From: Haliea salexigens DSM 19537
Lineage (GTDB): Bacteria > Pseudomonadota > Gammaproteobacteria > Pseudomonadales > Halieaceae
Direction of reading: 5' to 3'
DNA: 64,000 nt
Assembly: GCF_000423125.1 (NCBI RefSeq)
Contig: NZ_AUHJ01000008.1
Span: 1 to 64,000 of the forward strand
In this document: piece by piece, positions 1-6,149 of the stretch
Position numbering within the stretch: the first letter of the stretch is position 1
How the letters are laid out: each line of letters begins with the position of its first letter
Made by a program: the position numbers and the translations under genes
Notes under the pieces: model-generated
Told to the model about the DNA's origin: nothing
Database searches by the model: none
What the model saw: the letters and a program-made list of their open reading frames with translations, nothing else

Positions 1-136
1 CACGACGCAGATACTCGCTGACGGTGGGGCGGCCAATGCCACAGGCGGTGGCAATCTGCCGGTTGCTCAGGCCCTGGGCCCATTTGAGGCGCAGCACCTC
101 TTTGATTTTACGCATGGATAACCTCTTCGCTGGCAT
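1..136 (-). CDS. istA: IS21-family transposase IstA, N-terminal fragment at window edge
   Basis: The frame starts at an ATG whose complement is at 134-136 and runs off the left edge after 45 codons. It begins MPAKRLSMRKIKEVLRLKW and continues with a helix-turn-helix segment (LSNRQIATACGIGRPTVSEY). This is the usual DNA-binding N-terminus of IstA, the IS21-family transposase, which carries an HTH domain followed by a DDE integrase core that would lie outside the window. An RBS-like GGAGGGGAA lies just upstream. The terminal repeats expected at this end of an IS21 element are present at 227-321, which supports the call. Whether istA is intact cannot be judged from 45 codons. Confidence 0.85.
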   Translation of the reverse strand, partial: MPAKRLSMRKIKEVLRLKWAQGLSNRQIATACGIGRPTVSEYLRR

Positions 137-226
137 CTGTTCCCCTCCGTGTGGAAAGGCTCAGAGTACCGGTTAGTTATCCCGCGTCGGGGCGCTCCGT
201 TGGGTGACCTCAGACTGCCTGCCGGG

Positions 227-321
227 GTGGCAGGCTTCGTCTGGAATCAGTGGCAGCTTTGCTGTGGAATGGGTGGCAGGCTTCGCGTGGAATCAGTGGC
301 AGGCTTGGTCTGGAATACGCA
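227..321 (-). mobile_element. IS21-family terminal repeat array and element end
   Basis: Four near-identical 21-bp units of the form GTGGCAGGCTTNGTCTGGAAT start at 227, 250, 273 and 296, an exact 23-bp period. The array is followed by ACGCA, so read on the minus strand the element would begin TGCGTATTCC. IS21-family elements carry multiple subterminal transposase-binding repeats upstream of istA and begin with TG, so this is most simply the istA-side end of the element, with its boundary near 321. The other end lies outside the window, so the target duplication cannot be checked. Confidence 0.75.
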
Positions 322-322
322 C

Positions 323-1633
323 TCACTCCCCACCCTCAGCGCCTGCGTCAGGCACGGGGGATGGGCTGGACAGGGTGTTGTAGCGTCTGGCTTTCTCGCG
401 CGATTTAAGTTGGGCATAGCGCGTCAGGTCAGCGCCTGACCCCCAACCCGTAGCCCGGTGGTAACTCACCGCGTCCCGGATATATCGCTCGAGCCCCTCA
501 AAGAAATCGGAAATACCCTCTCGAGCCATGTAGGAGGTGATCCCACTCAACCCATGTTTAAACAGAAAGTGATCGTCAGGTACCCGCGCGCGACTAATGC
601 GTGAGAGGTTTTCGCTACGTGGAACGCCCCAATTTGCTTGCACCAGGTGATCCCACAGAGGATGGTTCGGCCAGCGGGTGCGGCTATCGTCAGACGCACT
701 GGGTACGGTTAAACGCAGCCAGTTGTTCGCGCCATAGCGCCACAGGGCCGCAAGGCTTGCGCCGAGGTGCTCTGTAGTTTCCACCCCAAGCTCTTTGAGG
801 ACATTCCGTTTAAACTGAAACTCAAGACGCCAGACCGTCGTCGTGCCGTGCCAGCCAGACGCTTGCCACAGTTCGTGAAGATAGTATTTTTTAGACTTCT
901 GGATCTCCTCGGTCTTGTCGTACAGTCGTGCTGATATATCTCCGCCCAAGCCAAAGGCATATCCCGTGAAGCGCCGGGTTGTATAATAATTGCTTGCCTG
1001 ATTGGCTCGAGTAACCCAGGCATCCAGAGCCAGTGAACCAATGTCTACCTCTGTTGTGAAATCAACGCAGATATCCACACGACTAACGTTTGGGGTGATC
1101 GAGGCTCCACCAAGCTGGCTTACCACACTCGACAGGGCACCTGTTGCCGCAGCCCAACCTGCGCGAGTGATCAGCTCGCTACTGAGTTGCACATAGGCGA
1201 GTGGGAGCCTATGTGCCTTTTCACCGCACACCTGGATATGAAACCAGTTATCCACCAAAACATAGGGGAACCGCCCCTTTCCACGATCCCGCACTTCGAA
1301 GCGATGATCGTCCACCACAAAAACAGCACTCGACGAAACGACCGGGTCAGCTGATTTAGCACGTTCCTTGAGCTCGTCGAAGTGCCTTGCCTGTGCATCT
1401 GACAAACTACCCGGATATGACAGATACAGGCTGTCTATACCCGTGCGGAGGATCTGCGTGGACGGGTTTCGTTGAATGCTGTTTGCAGGTGCTGTGTTAC
1501 TAGGCGGCGCACCTGCCTCGACGGCGGGGAGGTGTGGGTGCGGGGTTGTCTGCGACACTCCCGCCCCCACACACTCTCCCTCATCAGTGGATGGGCTCGA
1601 TACACCTATCGATACTGAGTCTTGTTTAGCCAT
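323..1633 (-). CDS. Putative replication initiation protein (Rep_trans-like)
   Basis: 436 aa, started at an ATG preceded by AAGGAG with good spacing. The first 60 residues are low-complexity (Ser, Thr, Pro, Ala) and probably disordered. The rest resembles Rep_trans-type rolling-circle initiators: an RVDICVDF motif near residues 185-192 (acidic metal-binding type) and, about 45 residues on, a Gly-rich strand leading into RLYDKTEE near 236-243. A motif of this Y-x-K-x-x-E type accompanies the nicking site in the family. Such proteins nick the origin of small plasmids, phages or satellites. The stop codon falls 2 bp from the IS21 end, so the C-terminus is either natural or trimmed by the insertion. 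No other plasmid gene is visible nearby. The family assignment rests on motif recognition only. Confidence 0.55.
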   Translation of the reverse strand: MAKQDSVSIGVSSPSTDEGECVGAGVSQTTPHPHLPAVEAGAPPSNTAPANSIQRNPSTQILRTGIDSLYLSYPGSLSDAQARHFDELKERAKSADPVVSSSAVFVVDDHRFEVRDRGKGRFPYVLVDNWFHIQVCGEKAHRLPLAYVQLSSELITRAGWAAATGALSSVVSQLGGASITPNVSRVDICVDFTTEVDIGSLALDAWVTRANQASNYYTTRRFTGYAFGLGGDISARLYDKTEEIQKSKKYYLHELWQASGWHGTTTVWRLEFQFKRNVLKELGVETTEHLGASLAALWRYGANNWLRLTVPSASDDSRTRWPNHPLWDHLVQANWGVPRSENLSRISRARVPDDHFLFKHGLSGITSYMAREGISDFFEGLERYIRDAVSYHRATGWGSGADLTRYAQLKSREKARRYNTLSSPSPVPDAGAEGGE

Positions 1634-1707: not shown

Positions 1708-1717
1708 GTTTTATGTC
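1708..1717 (-). other. Cassette-end (attC R''-like) motif overlapping a stop codon
   Basis: On the minus strand this reads GACATAAAAC and includes the TAA stop of the 256-aa gene. It is a 9/10 match to the reverse complement of GTTATATGTC, the core-like motif that opens the same putative cassette at 2633-2642. In integron cassettes the motif at the end of the gene is complementary to the motif at its start. No partner core (GTTRRRY) follows before the rep gene, so the attC here would be truncated. Confidence 0.4.
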
Positions 1718-2481
1718 GCGCGATCAGATTGCCAACGCTGGATAAGGCGCTTGAGACTCCTGGAGGCATCCCCTTCGACATCATCGGGATAAAGCTTCAG
1801 TTCCTGACAAAATAGCTCATAGGCGCGCTTTTCTGTCAGGGAAGCGAGGCAATTCTCTTGTTCCAATACATAAAGACATACTCGCAATGGCGCGTAGGGT
1901 TTCATTTTCTTGGTGGGAGCCCCTTGCCGAAGCCGTTTGCTGACTTTCTGGAAGAATTCCTCATCACCCTGGTACTCCGCCAAAGCCATTCGATCAGCAA
2001 AAGGAGGGCAAGTCAGTATGGTTCGGTCGATAAGTATCGCGTCAAAAAAAGCTCCGTCATTGCCTTTTTCAACTTCCTTGGTCAACTCCTCCAAGGATTT
2101 ACTGTAGAAGCACATGGATCGAAGGTTACCCCTTAGGGCCATCGCAATACCCAGAATATATTTGGCATTTTCTGGATCGACTTCTGGCTCAAATCCCTTG
2201 AGTTGACTCAGGATCGCGACGTGAGGATCTGAAGTTTGAGCAACCTCAGCAAATTTGGATTCCAGACTAAGTAATTTGAGCTGCCAGGCCACCAGATCCA
2301 GGAAGGGAACCTTGTAGAAGGTAGCCCAGAAAAAGGGCGGGGTTAAGTGCTCAGCAAACCCACCTGGTAGCGAGGTCATGAACCCCCTTAGTTCAGCCAA
2401 GTCTGACTCAACCGATCGAAGTTGCTGCGTGAGCGCCAGTAGATCAGCGGCGGAGTAGCGACCAAACTCCTTACTAACCAT
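1711..2481 (-). CDS. Hypothetical protein of the cassette region
   Basis: 256 aa, not recognised. It is predicted soluble: no signal peptide and no membrane segment. The N-terminal 35 residues (SAADLLALTQQLRSVESDL) look helical, possibly a coiled coil, followed by a mixed region with hydrophobic aromatic patches (PPFFWATFYKVPFLDLVAW) and a charged, Lys/Arg-rich C-terminal part. It starts at an ATG followed by GTTAGTAAGGAG. It lies in what looks like the last of the minus-strand gene cassettes: a core-like motif sits about 155 bp upstream at 2636-2642 and a complementary motif overlaps its stop codon. Its GC content is lower than that of the chromosomal genes to the right, consistent with transfer. 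No function can be assigned. Confidence 0.6.
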   Translation of the reverse strand: MVSKEFGRYSAADLLALTQQLRSVESDLAELRGFMTSLPGGFAEHLTPPFFWATFYKVPFLDLVAWQLKLLSLESKFAEVAQTSDPHVAILSQLKGFEPEVDPENAKYILGIAMALRGNLRSMCFYSKSLEELTKEVEKGNDGAFFDAILIDRTILTCPPFADRMALAEYQGDEEFFQKVSKRLRQGAPTKKMKPYAPLRVCLYVLEQENCLASLTEKRAYELFCQELKLYPDDVEGDASRSLKRLIQRWQSDRAT

Positions 2482-2635
2482 ATTTGCGTCCGAATCCTGT
2501 GGTTTGTCACCGAAAGGCTACGGGTTGATGCGGCAAGACTCAATCGCAGTTTACGTGCTACACAACACCAGCCGCGGAGGGTTTACACGGTTATAATTCG
2601 GCTCCAGAGCGGGGAGCTATCGACCGAAACCAGAC

Positions 2636-2734
2636 ATATAACACCTGAGCTCAACTGCGTTCGAGGCGATGCCTGCTTTTGCGAAAGTAAAAGCGCGCAG
2701 CCCGTCAAACGTCGCGTGCAACGCCTTATTAGGC
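2636..2734 (-). other. attC-like recombination site (putative integron cassette)
   Basis: Minus strand, 99 bp. It starts GCCTAATAAGGCGTTGCACG, with the TAA stop of the 138-aa gene inside the first motif, and ends CGCAGTTGAGCTCAGGTGTTATAT. This fits the attC layout R''-L''...L'-R' with a GTTRRRY-like core (GTTATAT) at 2636-2642. Internal symmetry includes GCGTT (2720-2724) with AACGC (2657-2661) and a central hairpin GCTTTT/AAAAGC. A size of 57-141 bp and a stop codon at the site boundary are typical of gene cassettes. The core is degenerate, so the call depends on the repeated architecture of the region. Confidence 0.6.
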
Positions 2735-3145
2735 ACCTTCCGCACCAATCTGTGGGAGATCTCCAGGTGGGACTCCCACGTCGACGGTGTCAGTACGGAA
2801 TAGGATCGGAACCACTATAGAGTTTGCAAACATGGTCTTTCGCCGGCCCCAGTGAACAGTGTAGATCTTGCCTCCTGGAGAATTTGGCAAGTCATGAGTC
2901 CTCGGCGAGCCGCTTCCGGTGTATAGGAATATCCAGTCCCCGGTATTCACTATCCCATCACCGAACCAGAACAAGTTGTCTTGGACTGGCATAGCAAATC
3001 GTTGCGGCCCTGTAATCCCGACCATCAGTCCGTACCGCCCCATGTCCGTAGGCTGCAGCACATGTATTGGCACATGCTCAGAATTTGGGACCCCCCTGTT
3101 TGCCACCGGATAAAGCTTCAATTCGGCCAGGTCAGAGACAATCAC
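2729..3145 (-). CDS. Hypothetical protein of the cassette region
   Basis: 138 aa, not recognised. It has no signal peptide or membrane helix. Alternating Gly- and aromatic-rich stretches (GDWIFLYTGSG, KIYTVHWGRRK) suggest a compact beta-rich fold with a binding cleft, but this is inference from composition. Its start codon overlaps the end of the upstream membrane protein by 4 bp (ATGA), so the two are translationally coupled and probably work together. Its TAA stop forms part of the attC-like site at 2636-2734, which places it as the last gene of a two-gene cassette. Confidence 0.6.
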   Translation of the reverse strand: MIVSDLAELKLYPVANRGVPNSEHVPIHVLQPTDMGRYGLMVGITGPQRFAMPVQDNLFWFGDGIVNTGDWIFLYTGSGSPRTHDLPNSPGGKIYTVHWGRRKTMFANSIVVPILFRTDTVDVGVPPGDLPQIGAEGA

Positions 3146-3651
3146 CTGTCACCTCCCTTAGGCACTGAAAGCCAGCTCATTAGGACGAGAACAGCTCCTA
3201 TCACTCCAGTTGCCACCCCAACAAGCTCAGCGTTGTCCGCACGTGAAAGTTGAACACCGCCTCCCAGAAGTATAGTGCCCACAGCAATACCAACATTTTT
3301 CAGGTGCCGCGTCGATTGGAATGCGGAAATTCGCTCATTCAGGATCGCTGAGTTTATCCTCTCATTGGCAAGGTCGTCTCTTAGCGATTCTCTATCTGTT
3401 CGCAGTAATGCAAGTTCTTGCTTCGTCTGATCCAACTCAACTGCCATCTGGGATGTGATCCCAGCGACAAGGGTCGAGGCAACTTCTCCGCCAAAGGCGC
3501 GCGAACGCGATGCCGCGAGGCCGGTAATCGATTTAGCCATCGGAGCGGTGAGCGGTTGGGCTGCAACCAGTTCACTGCCACCATCGGAATTGACCTGAGT
3601 TCCATCGGAACCCGAGTCCTTTGGTTCTGGAATTTCAGTTTGGTCAGTCAC
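3142..3651 (-). CDS. Coiled-coil membrane protein with two C-terminal TM helices
   Basis: 169 aa from a GTG at 3651, chosen because GGAGAGG precedes it at proper spacing. The same frame is open back to an ATG at 3834, but that one lacks a convincing RBS. The N-terminal 40 residues are acidic and disordered. A Leu/Glu/Arg-rich segment (ELDQTKQELALLRTDRESL) forms a probable coiled coil, followed by two short hydrophobic helices (VGIAVGTILLGGGVQL and VGVATGVIGAVLVLMSWL) and a basic tail. It is likely an inner-membrane protein with a cytoplasmic coiled coil. The stop overlaps the start of the downstream 138-aa gene. Small two-TM proteins paired with a soluble partner are common in defence and toxin modules, but no motif here proves such a role. 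Confidence 0.5.
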   Translation of the reverse strand: MTDQTEIPEPKDSGSDGTQVNSDGGSELVAAQPLTAPMAKSITGLAASRSRAFGGEVASTLVAGITSQMAVELDQTKQELALLRTDRESLRDDLANERINSAILNERISAFQSTRHLKNVGIAVGTILLGGGVQLSRADNAELVGVATGVIGAVLVLMSWLSVPKGGDR

Positions 3652-4003
3652 ATACCTCTCCAAAGTGCCAAAGGCCTTGCGTAACGGCGGTGAAACGGTG
3701 CAACGGTTTTGCCGTCCGGCCACACTAGAACCGCATTCCCACTTCTTGTTAAGAGGCTCAACAAACCAAGCCAACAATGGAAATTTTTTAGGGCCGCCGC
3801 TGAAACGATCAATGGCGCAGTAAACCTGAACCATAACTGATGTAACTCAGCAAGTACCGCTGACAGCATTGGAAAATGTACGGCGTGTAAATTGTCGCCG
3901 ATCGCCATGGTGAAAAGCGACCAAATTGATCTAGATAGCGATCATGTATCCTTTGCAAGATTTCCCGATCTGTTGGTGGTCTAGGCACGATCCCCCCTTG
4001 GCC
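3652..4003. other. Leader region of the two-gene cassette, no convincing gene
   Basis: About 350 bp between the attC-like site at 4004-4090 and the preferred GTG start at 3651. Two minus-strand frames are open over part of it: one continuous with the membrane protein from 3834, the other an 86-codon frame starting at 3908. Neither has a good RBS or a recognisable product. It may hold the cassette's own promoter or a decayed small gene. Confidence 0.4.
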
Positions 4004-4090
4004 TCTTAACGCCTACATTCGGGCCGGCGAAGCGCGCAGCACTTTGGCGTCCAAGCAGCCACGGGCTGCGACAACATGTACTTATTATGC
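4004..4090 (-). other. attC-like recombination site (putative integron cassette)
   Basis: Minus strand, 87 bp. It starts GCATAATAAGTACATG immediately after the TGA stop of the 99-aa gene and ends AATGTAGGCGTTAAGA. The opening motif GCATAAT complements GTTATGC (4421-4427), the core at the start of this cassette, as cassette architecture requires. TACAT (4076-4080) pairs with ATGTA (4014-4018), and a GCAGCC/GGCTGC hairpin lies between. The terminal core GTTAAGA opens the next cassette. Confidence 0.6.
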
Positions 4091-4091
4091 G

Positions 4092-4391
4092 TCATTGGAG
4101 CATTTGCTCAATGAGCTTGATCAGGGTTGAAAAGCCCTCCGATGAGAGCCGCCCCGAGAACGCCTGATACAAGGCTTCGATAAAGGCTGGACCTTCCTTA
4201 ATTGGCGCTCCGAGGTCATCAAACCGCTCAGTGATCCAGTCAGCTATCTGAATCTGCTCGTACTCTGAAAGCTTGTTCGACAACTCAACTCTCTCTATCA
4301 CAGCAGCAGGTGTAACTAGCACTGTAGCGGGATAAGTCTTGGCAACTATCGACGCTGGTTGTGGCTGGATATTTCTCGGTTCCGTGCCCAT
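4092..4391 (-). CDS. Small hypothetical cassette protein
   Basis: 99 aa from the ATG at 4391, chosen because GGAGAGCGAT precedes it; an upstream in-frame ATG at 4448 would read through the cassette core. The protein is not recognised. The first 35 residues are Pro/Ala/Thr-rich (QPQPASIVAKTYPATVLVTP). The rest is probably alpha-helical and acidic (SEYEQIQIADWITERFDDL, then STLIKLIEQMLQ at the end). It has no signal peptide or membrane helix. It is alone in its putative cassette, with GTTATGC 30 bp upstream and an attC-like site directly after the stop. It follows the HEPN gene, so a role as its partner is possible but unsupported by sequence. Confidence 0.6.
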   Translation of the reverse strand: MGTEPRNIQPQPASIVAKTYPATVLVTPAAVIERVELSNKLSEYEQIQIADWITERFDDLGAPIKEGPAFIEALYQAFSGRLSSEGFSTLIKLIEQMLQ

Positions 4392-4420
4392 ATCGCTCTC
4401 CGGTGAATGGAATTGGAGGC

Positions 4421-4444
4421 GCATAACGCCTGAGTTAGAAGGCC
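4421..4444 (-). other. Cassette boundary: R''-like GGCCTTCTAAC followed by core GTTATGC
   Basis: On the minus strand the junction reads GGCCTTCTAAC, then TCAGGC, then GTTATGC. The first 11 bp are the perfect reverse complement of GTTAGAAGGCC at 5267-5277, the motif that opens the HEPN cassette. The following GTTATGC opens the next cassette. The usual attC stem region between the two motifs is almost absent (about 6 bp), so this site looks internally deleted and probably no longer recombines. Confidence 0.5.
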
Positions 4445-4449
4445 GCACG

Positions 4450-5259
4450 CTAGCCGCCCAATTTTGAAAAGCGGTGGCCTGGGACTTTCAAACGCTTTCT
4501 TGCACCCTTGTCTACAGCCAAAACCGAGAGCGTGGCCACCTTGGCAAATGCCTCAACATCTCCGATCCAAAGAGCTTTCAATTCACCACAATCGGTTTGC
4601 TTTGCACCAGTCCGCGAGATGTATCGCTGATTGATTACGCAGCGATTGTGAACCGAGATATTCCGGGCCTCTATTGCCTCAATGACTTTTTGACGCCCCT
4701 TATCGTCTACAAGCACGAGACTAAACCTATTTGAAAAGAATTCCTCAAGGCTACTGAATGACGAATAAGTTAGGCTTTCAACCTTACGCTCAGCAACTGT
4801 CTGCACAAGATCTTGAATGCTGTCATGCTTCAAGACCGTTTCCAAATCAATCTTGTCCGATGAACGCAATGTCTCCGGCCGAGAGACAAATATCTCTCTC
4901 AGCAGAGACGACAAGTAGTTCAGGTAGTTCTCGACGTGCCTGACTAAAACAACCTCCATAAAGAATTGACGATTCTCCCGTAGGTCGTCAATCGTGCTTC
5001 GGCGCTCCCTCCAATCTCGCTCCATCTGGGCCTGCTTCTCCAGATCATCTTCAACTGAAAGCAGGGCACTGTGGGCGCTCTCAGACACCTTTTCAATGTG
5101 GCCCGCCATTCCAATAACGAAATAAAGGAAACGATTGATTTGGCGGAATGAAGCTAAATACTCGTTGCAAGAGACCGTTCCGGTTGCTGGTAGACGAACG
5201 CCAAGATACGGTGAACGAGATGACGCTGCTTGCGGCTTGGGGTTTGATTTGGCATTCAT
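4450..5259 (-). CDS. HEPN-domain protein, probable ribonuclease/toxin
   Basis: 269 aa, ATG at 5259 with AAGG eight bases upstream. The body is strongly helical. Residues 70-110 are charged and coiled-coil-like, and the C-terminal half ends in AIEARNISVHNRCVINQRYI. R199 and H204 there form an R-x4-H motif with Asn after the Arg, the catalytic signature of HEPN RNases used in toxin-antitoxin, abortive-infection and CRISPR effectors. Short segments such as VRHVENYLNYLSSLLREIF resemble the MAE_28990/RiboL-PSP-type HEPN groups, though the exact subgroup is uncertain. It sits in the first putative cassette of the array, 12 bp behind a core-like motif. No antitoxin is recognised in the same cassette. 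RNase activity is inferred from the motif. Confidence 0.65.
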   Translation of the reverse strand: MNAKSNPKPQAASSRSPYLGVRLPATGTVSCNEYLASFRQINRFLYFVIGMAGHIEKVSESAHSALLSVEDDLEKQAQMERDWRERRSTIDDLRENRQFFMEVVLVRHVENYLNYLSSLLREIFVSRPETLRSSDKIDLETVLKHDSIQDLVQTVAERKVESLTYSSFSSLEEFFSNRFSLVLVDDKGRQKVIEAIEARNISVHNRCVINQRYISRTGAKQTDCGELKALWIGDVEAFAKVATLSVLAVDKGARKRLKVPGHRFSKLGG

Positions 5260-5266
5260 GTTGATC

Positions 5267-5277
5267 GGCCTTCTAAC
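5267..5277 (-). other. Cassette core motif GTTAGAAGGCC opening the HEPN cassette
   Basis: On the minus strand this reads GTTAGAAGGCC, fitting the GTTRRRY integron core (GTTAGAA deviates only in the last base). It is exactly repeated in inverted form 820 bp downstream at 4434-4444, behind the stop codon of the HEPN gene. Matching inverted 7-11 bp motifs at cassette start and end are diagnostic of gene cassettes. No attI-like element or intI gene is visible upstream. Confidence 0.5.
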
Positions 5278-5697
5278 AGCGGATTAACAAGACCGGACCG
5301 AATAACCTCATTCCGGTTCACTCGGCTACCGGAGCCGAAGAAAAGAATATTTTTATCATGAAATTAGTATGTTAGCTACTCGCACTTCAAATCCATCCGA
5401 AATAACCGGACGTCATTTAAAACTATGACTCACCCATTTTAGGAAACAGCGACTTTGGGAGATCAACTGCCCTTAGCGACAGCGCAAGTAGAATGGCGGC
5501 TTAGGTGCGGACTCAAACTAACAATTGTGCGGGCAGCTGCTAGATCATTAGATCTAGGGATTGAGCACAGACTGTGGCCACAATTGTGACCACACAAAAT
5601 CGCACCATCAAATATTCAGTACCATTACGTCACATTAGAATTGGGGGCAAACGTCGTAACTGGCTGATTAAATAGAGTATTTAGTTTGGCCAGCCAA
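5278..5697. other. AT-richer noncoding end of the island
   Basis: About 420 bp without a gene, clearly lower in GC than the chromosome to the right. It holds hairpin-forming segments near 5296-5340 (including CGGCT...AGCCG), the palindromes listed at 5521-5594, and an inverted repeat TTTGGC-CA-GCCAAA at 5685-5698 abutting the tRNA-Phe remnant. It probably contains the integrase arm-binding part of the attachment site and the promoter of the HEPN cassette. No promoter could be fixed with confidence. Confidence 0.5.
5521..5594. repeat. Cluster of palindromes and a direct repeat near the attachment site
   Basis: CTAGATC-ATTA-GATCTAG (5540-5557) is a perfect 7-bp inverted repeat. TGTGGCCACAA/TTGTGACCACA (5573-5594) is a 22-bp palindrome with one mismatch pair. 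ACAATTGTG occurs twice, at 5521-5529 and 5580-5588, exactly 59 bp apart. Their position 100-180 bp inside the island boundary fits binding sites for an integrase, excisionase or regulator, but no partner protein is visible. Confidence 0.5.
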
Positions 5698-5743
5698 ATT
5701 GAAAATCCCCGTGTCGGCAGTTCGATTCTGTCTCCGGGCACCA
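5698..5743 (+). other. tRNA-Phe 3' fragment: attachment site at island boundary
   Basis: These 46 bases run from the anticodon loop (ATTGAAAATCCCC, containing anticodon GAA) through a complete T-arm (GGCAG-TTCGATT-CTGTC) to the acceptor strand TCCGGGCA plus CCA. They match the 3' part of bacterial tRNA-Phe, such as the E. coli gene, apart from the T-stem. The sequence just upstream does not supply the D-arm or 5' acceptor strand, so this is not a functional tRNA gene. It is the partial copy left where an element integrates into the 3' half of a tRNA gene, and it marks the right end of the island. Confidence 0.85.
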
Positions 5744-6149
5744 TTTTACCCCCTTATGCTTATATCGTTACGGCAACCTCTCAGCCTCGCTCTTGGAGCG
5801 CTGAATCGAATCTAGACGAAAGTTCCCTGCGGTCTCTATGCTGCTCCTTGTTACCCAGTTCATACGAGTAGTCGCGAGCGGTAGGGTACGAAAACTGCGT
5901 CGGTTACCTGCCCCCTGCATACCATTCCCAAAACCGCGGACAAACTGTGAAATATCAGGCAATGTCTCGGCGTTCGCTGATGCCGCCAGACGCGATTATG
6001 AACCAGGTACGACGATCTGTCTGGCTGTCACGGGAAACGAACGATCCGGAAAATTGCTTTCTTTGGATTTGCTGATACTGCTCCGGAATGGGTTTGGCAT
6101 TCCCACGAAAACATGGATCGAAAGAAAATGGGGCCAGCGAGATTAACTG
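5744..6149. other. Chromosomal stretch next to the island, no convincing gene
   Basis: About 400 bp between the tRNA-Phe remnant and the sulfotransferase stop. A 102-codon plus-strand frame (5838-6146) ends in a stretch resembling real protein (LLSLDLLILLRNGFGIPTK) but has no RBS and matches nothing recognised. It could be decayed remnant DNA left by earlier insertions at the same tRNA site. No terminator or RNA gene is visible. Confidence 0.4.

Follow-up and report, generated by a model that had tools for sequence, protein, structure and literature searches.

A cassette array headed by an attI site without its own integrase gene on a tRNA-Phe integrative element of Haliea salexigens

How do integron-type gene cassettes come to stand where no integron integrase gene (intI) adjoins them? 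The question is raised by positions 1 to 64,000 of contig NZ_AUHJ01000008.1 (contig C8; hereafter the window) of Haliea salexigens DSM 19537, a member of the Halieaceae, in which the original prediction had recognised a cluster of integron-like cassettes without an integrase. That reading is right, the cluster being a CALIN (cluster of attC sites lacking integron-integrases), and incomplete: the array has an attI site at its head and is the cargo of an integrative element inserted in a tRNA-Phe gene. Integrase-less arrays are as a rule put down to decay or to chance insertion. On the basis of the comparisons given below, we consider it probable that attI sites without an integrase gene, here called docks and in some cases located on mobile elements, are loaded by an integron integrase (IntI) acting in trans.

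A cassette array headed by attI

The cassette array at 5277-2636 on the minus strand is real. It holds four cassettes, now two fused pairs, in the order attI (to 5277), cassette 1, cassette 2, cassette 3a and cassette 3b, the attC of which ends at 2636. The four GTTRRRY-like core motifs from which cassettes had first been suspected are all present on this strand (at 5277, 4427, 4010 and 2642). The covariance-model test proposed with that suspicion was carried out with a model trained on 33 attC of relatives, the window being left out, and supports integron-type cassettes: at E-values up to 10 the model finds two attC in the 64 kb, both inside the array, namely the intact 87-bp attC of cassette 2 (4004-4090, minus strand; 41.5 bits, E=9.7e-9) and a decayed attC between cassettes 3a and 3b (3667-3754, minus strand; R' = CTTTGGC; 32.4 bits, E=2.4e-6). 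No attC was found by the model at E up to 0.1 in a negative set of 30 viral contigs with related phage integrases (294 kb). The model misses the 99-bp attC of cassette 3b, the last of the array (2636-2734, minus strand), which has 72 of its 99 positions in common with an attC of a relative (L104 10788-10886); elsewhere in the window the best agreement is 48 of 99. Both attC-sized sites of the original prediction are thus real, one by the model and the other by likeness. The covariance model took the place of strict scans for attC patterns and palindromes, which are defeated by the fact that R' is part of the following cassette.

The attC of cassette 1 is a 24-bp remnant (4421-4444, minus strand) with R'' and R' retained and the middle gone, and cassettes 1 and 2 are fused on account of this loss. 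The 11/11 inverted match claimed for this cassette, between GTTAGAAGGCC at 5277-5267 and GGCCTTCTAAC at 4444-4434, is exact, and among the window's 134 open reading frames (ORFs) of 100 aa or longer no other has a match of this type. Complementarity between the end of a gene and the start of its own cassette had been noted in three of four cases, the sole failure being explained by the overlooked decayed attC at 3754-3667, whose R'' TCTTAAC is the exact complement of the cassette 3a start GTTAAGA. What had been taken for a single third cassette is therefore two, split by this site. The supposed fourth cassette (2636-1708) must be withdrawn, its gene at 2481-1711 being part of the backbone of the integrative element; the 9/10 match of its GACATAA region, which includes the stop codon of that gene, to GTTATATGTC is probably chance. 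With the attC of two of the four cassettes (1 and 3a) decayed or broken, the array amounts to two fused double cassettes.

Upstream of cassette 1 lies an attI of about 52 bp (5274-5329, minus strand) with its crossover at the GTT starting at 5277. This site is common to attI sites beside intact intI: the sequence just upstream of cassette 1 is that which separates an intact intI from the first cassette in genomes G018, G132 and G019, the last being the metagenome-assembled genome (MAG) of Halieaceae bacterium UBA5044. The array thus has the attI of a complete integron at its head and lacks the intI beside it, there being no integron-integrase match on contig C8 nor in the complete orthologous element of UBA5044 (L100). 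The absence is not a contig-end effect, because 58 kb of unbroken sequence lie upstream of attI and because the complete element of the relative is also without intI. The remark that no intI is visible accordingly holds for contig C8 but not for the genome, in which contig C28 carries a full-length intI and contig C12 a truncated copy.

Docks at fixed chromosomal places

We searched 140 genomes of the family with an attI pattern of 32 positions, allowing three mismatches (at least 29 of 32), and obtained 21 matches in nine genomes; the reversed pattern, used as a control, gave none, and the pattern was absent from viral contigs. Three of these copies adjoin an intact intI and three an intI remnant, the rest being without intI in the stretch examined. 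Comparison of their flanks assigns most copies to four orthologous places, A to D. Place A is the integrase locus and was found in seven genomes, its intI being in decay with N- or C-terminal remnants on C12 of the window genome and in G017 and G022. Place B is present in five species and never with intI, place C in two species, and place D in the window and UBA5044; none of the genomes of the family set has intI at B, C or D. Unrelated loci share about 52 bp only, with identities of 0.28-0.36 upstream of -50 and 0.56-0.79 from -50 to the crossover. The flanks of place B were also found in three more species, but with similarity ending before attI and hence without information on an empty site. 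The attI core at place B of the window genome (L021 10203-10255) is of the type found at place A while those of four orthologues (L096, L097, L101, L103) are of another type, as if it had been converted by recombination between docks.

Cassette exchange at the crossover

Each of the 15 orthologous pairs compared is homologous for 450 bp or more ahead of attI, and the homology breaks off between +3 and +10 of the GTT. Some pairs include a contig whose end lies within 30 bp of the crossover, and for the downstream side only the longer ones are informative. At place D, the window and UBA5044 are homologous up to the attI crossover and again from the crossover of the last attC onwards, the cassettes between these two points being different. 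Cassette 1 of the window, which encodes a HEPN-like protein, has too few relatives (one weak plasmid match, three weak matches in 369 genomes and none in viral contigs), and cassette sharing was therefore tested with the cassettes of the orthologous dock in UBA5044 instead. The first of these is 98.1% identical over 420 bp, from GTT to GTT, to a cassette in the C13 array of the window genome, compared with 83% identity for the chromosomal flank of the two genomes, which indicates recent loading of dock D in spite of its lack of an integrase gene. A cassette block at place A of the window genome is in turn 92% identical to a block at place B of UBA5044, and from these two matches it follows that the docks draw on one cassette pool. 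An IS3-like transposase is inserted inside an attC of the C13 array, with the halves on both sides (L127 7285-8665). At place B of the window genome, the second cassette (L021 8485-9691; G000:C1:308484-309690) reads as a small mercury-resistance-like operon within one cassette, comprising a MerR-like regulator, a membrane protein and a small cysteine-rich protein.

The tRNA-Phe element carrying the array

One end of the integrative element is marked by a 50-bp direct repeat (5698-5747, plus strand) corresponding to the 3' half of tRNA-Phe, from the anticodon loop to CCA, and 98% identical to a second copy inside the intact tRNA-Phe of UBA5044 (L100 15314-15363). The left part of the element, from this repeat to attI (5274-5744, minus strand), is 87.1% identical to UBA5044 over 473 bp and without intI. 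Beyond the array stand p256, a backbone gene (1711-2481, minus strand) 93% identical in UBA5044 and 25-35% identical in four other elements beside Rep, and a gene for a 436-aa Rep-like protein (323-1633, minus strand), the whole block 2642-322 having 96.4% identity to a relative. Relatives of Rep occur in 11 other gammaproteobacterial genomes, where they mostly adjoin Xis, Int and a tRNA; it has a distant match to the Rep of a 1.7-kb plasmid and no significant Pfam or NCBIfam match, and its single-sequence structure was too poor for use. The element is interrupted at the contig start by an IS21-like insertion (1-321, minus strand; identified as IS21 by reading), homology to UBA5044 stopping at 322. 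Since the window is the start of contig C8, the integrase end of the element is lost beyond this point.

UBA5044 carries a complete orthologous element in the order 50-bp tRNA-Phe 3'-half repeat, attI, three cassettes, p256, Rep, Xis, Int and intact tRNA-Phe, in which Xis is an excisionase-like helix-turn-helix protein and Int a phage-type tyrosine integrase (PF00589; L100 14189-15220). The tRNA direct repeats are seen at both ends there and at one end in the window, the other lying beyond the contig start. An empty site is provided by G022, in which the flanking genes run straight into tRNA-Phe with nothing inserted. Related elements, with Rep mostly 36-45% identical, adjoin tRNA-Phe, -Arg or -Met in other Gammaproteobacteria, and the one whose cargo was read in detail (L148) is without cassettes. 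In place of cassettes this tRNA-Phe element has two larger genes (L148 10770-14455), one of them DUF2235-like by reading. The cargo slot of the family may hold defence genes. Carriage of an element was not significantly associated with carriage of intI (7/11 versus 138/357, one-sided p=0.09), and a BLAST search with the host attI found beside seven intI in six other element-carrying genomes revealed no copy in their elements.

Proposed loading in trans and its alternatives

The attI and attC sites, the element, the missing adjoining intI and the exact replacement of cassettes at the crossover are plain features of the sequences. From them we infer that a cassette array at an attI without its own intI, carried as cargo by a p256-Rep-Xis-Int element in a Halieaceae tRNA-Phe, would obtain its recombinase from an IntI encoded elsewhere in the cell. 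This IntI would treat the attI of a functional dock like the one beside its own gene, inserting circular cassettes at the G/TT. Several such docks are kept by the genus at fixed chromosomal positions. A candidate source exists in UBA5044, which has an intact IntI at place A. In the window genome, the genus-type intI is reduced to its N-terminal 81 residues on C12, and a full-length IntI of another lineage lies near the end of C28 adjoining a different attI. Loading of dock D in trans is hence well supported for the lineage and uncertain for the window strain at present. Breakage of two of the four attC, together with truncation of the genus-type intI, gives the array in the window a partly frozen appearance. 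The C28 integrase (G000:C28:18346-20332; L001, L009) is 63% identical to an integrase on a Vibrio alginolyticus IncC plasmid, and its array has a GNAT cassette with an attC cut by the contig end.

Several observations weigh against loading in trans. Loss of the genus-type intI and the position of the C28 IntI beside a different attI make current dock activity uncertain, half of the attC in the window array are decayed, and the attI core of the D type differs from the A type at about a fifth of positions. At some loci, intI may formerly have stood at the dock and then been deleted. The orthologous pairs are moreover not all independent and come from four loci. Taken to its full extent, this is the view that each locus is a degraded integron that once had its own intI, was loaded by it and later lost it, with nothing acting in trans. 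CALINs are commonly viewed as degraded integrons (PMC9024848), intI is indeed decaying at place A (C12, G017, G022), and the two decayed attC of the window fit as well. Against it, no trace of intI is left at B (five species), C (two) or D (two), the cassettes of orthologues differ at all four loci, and the 98.1% identical cassette of UBA5044 dock D and C13 of the window genome implies recent loading, so that we regard degradation as an unlikely explanation.

We attach far less weight to the idea that the cassettes were inserted off target at random genomic sites (attG), with the likeness upstream expressing only a sequence preference of IntI. Insertion of this kind by IntI1 is established in E. 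coli (Loot 2024, as cited in PMC12444791), but the 52 bp shared at 0.56-0.79 identity between unrelated loci, the agreement at 29 or more of 32 pattern positions with no match in the reversed control, and the occupation of the same sites across species speak otherwise, and the insertion site of the window array is related to attI. It is equally improbable that the element's own phage-type tyrosine integrase, rather than IntI, moves the cassettes. This recombinase is encoded in the same element and has a weak match to the integron-integrase model (32 bits against a cut-off of 265 bits), yet it matches phage integrases (PF00589) and is placed at the tRNA, as other island integrases are. Most of the related elements that share this Int lack attC, none was found on the 30 viral contigs whose integrases are related to it, and docks B and C are without an Int of this kind. 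Finally, GTTRRRY is a common motif and simple pattern scans give many false matches, so an ordinary genomic island of unrelated genes with chance motifs might be imagined; this is refuted by the covariance E-values, the complementarity of cassette ends, the attI and the exact exchange at the crossover, and we give it virtually no credence.

The same layout in other lineages

Integrase-less attI sites followed by attC were also found in Shewanella and two other families. A second attI type without intI within about 1.5 kb, followed by attC, occurs at two places in G182, in G175 and in the element of G318; in the latter, from another family (L146), p256 and Rep are immediately preceded by an attI-like site and two attC. 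In the Shewanella prophage M16-3 the published attI is present twice, once beside intI, and the same attI lies on three more viral contigs, each time followed by attC and without intI in the stretch examined, which for L256 extends only 987 bp upstream. These Shewanella attI modules of about 90-340 bp are shared amid mostly unrelated flanks, and nine of the ten pairs of copies lose their homology between +3 and +5 of the crossover. On one of the viral contigs, a predicted prophage (L257 8471-10586), the integrase-less attI is followed by a DNA methyltransferase gene before the first attC, and the gene opposed to the methyltransferase may encode its restriction enzyme.

The window array resembles CALINs as defined in IntegronFinder 2.0 (PMC9024848) in having several attC-flanked cassettes in one orientation with no adjoining intI, and differs in having attI at its head; that program detects attI of class 1 only, so CALINs are not normally checked for attI (PMC9024848). 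CALINs far from intI have been reported in Shewanella (PMC9229058). Likewise, the CALIN of prophage M16-3 (PMC9892861) is an integrase-less array on a mobile element and begins with a copy of the lineage's attI. It is, however, a single case and its intI lies in the same prophage, whereas the Halieaceae docks occupy fixed chromosomal positions in several species and have exchanged their cassettes, and one of them is on a tRNA-Phe Rep-Xis-Int element. Xanthomonas CALINs (PMC12444791) also lack an integrase and occupy matching loci in different species, with no attI reported there, and the explanation for their conserved loci is not settled (PMC12444791). The attC of cassette 1, which keeps R'' with the middle gone, recalls the fused cassettes with truncated attC of Partridge 2009, as described in PMC12901181, although the present case belongs to an environmental integrase-less array. 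The delta-attI cassettes of the same account may be a way of spreading attI copies.

What is new here is an attI dock that lacks an integrase, keeps its position while its cassettes change, and travels on an integrative element; the term 'orphan attI' was not found in the open-access papers searched, subscription papers being outside the search and priority therefore not certain. More tentatively, and with doubt slightly outweighing belief, we suggest that docks on chromosomes, small integrative elements and prophages are widespread and maintained, and use the IntI of the cell in trans. If so, many CALINs would be active satellite platforms rather than decayed integrons. Docks could explain CALINs that recur at the same loci across species, as in Xanthomonas, and would offer small integrative elements and prophages a route to gather cassettes without carrying an integrase. 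A simple test would be to seek attI in CALINs, beyond intI and attC alone.

Gene content of the cassettes

A simple scan of 5200-5800 matched no sigma-70-like cassette promoter (Pc), and an Rfam search gave no match anywhere in the window. All genes of the array are on the minus strand. The HEPN-like protein of cassette 1 (4450-5259; 269 aa) has a weak match to RTasHEPN of PADLOC (E=2.4e-4), and its motif RNISVH fits the R-x4-6-H motif; its structure predicted from the single sequence is poor (pLDDT 37). The 99-aa product of cassette 2 (4092-4391) had no match in the family search, and cassette 3a has an ORF of 59 aa (3809-3988) in the ORF list. Cassette 3b has two overlapping genes, both without a family match, the second of which (2729-3145; ORF list) encodes 138 aa. 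The first (3142-3651), recognised by reading from a GTG start and a GGAGAGG ribosome site, encodes a protein of 169 aa with a hydrophobic C-terminal region.

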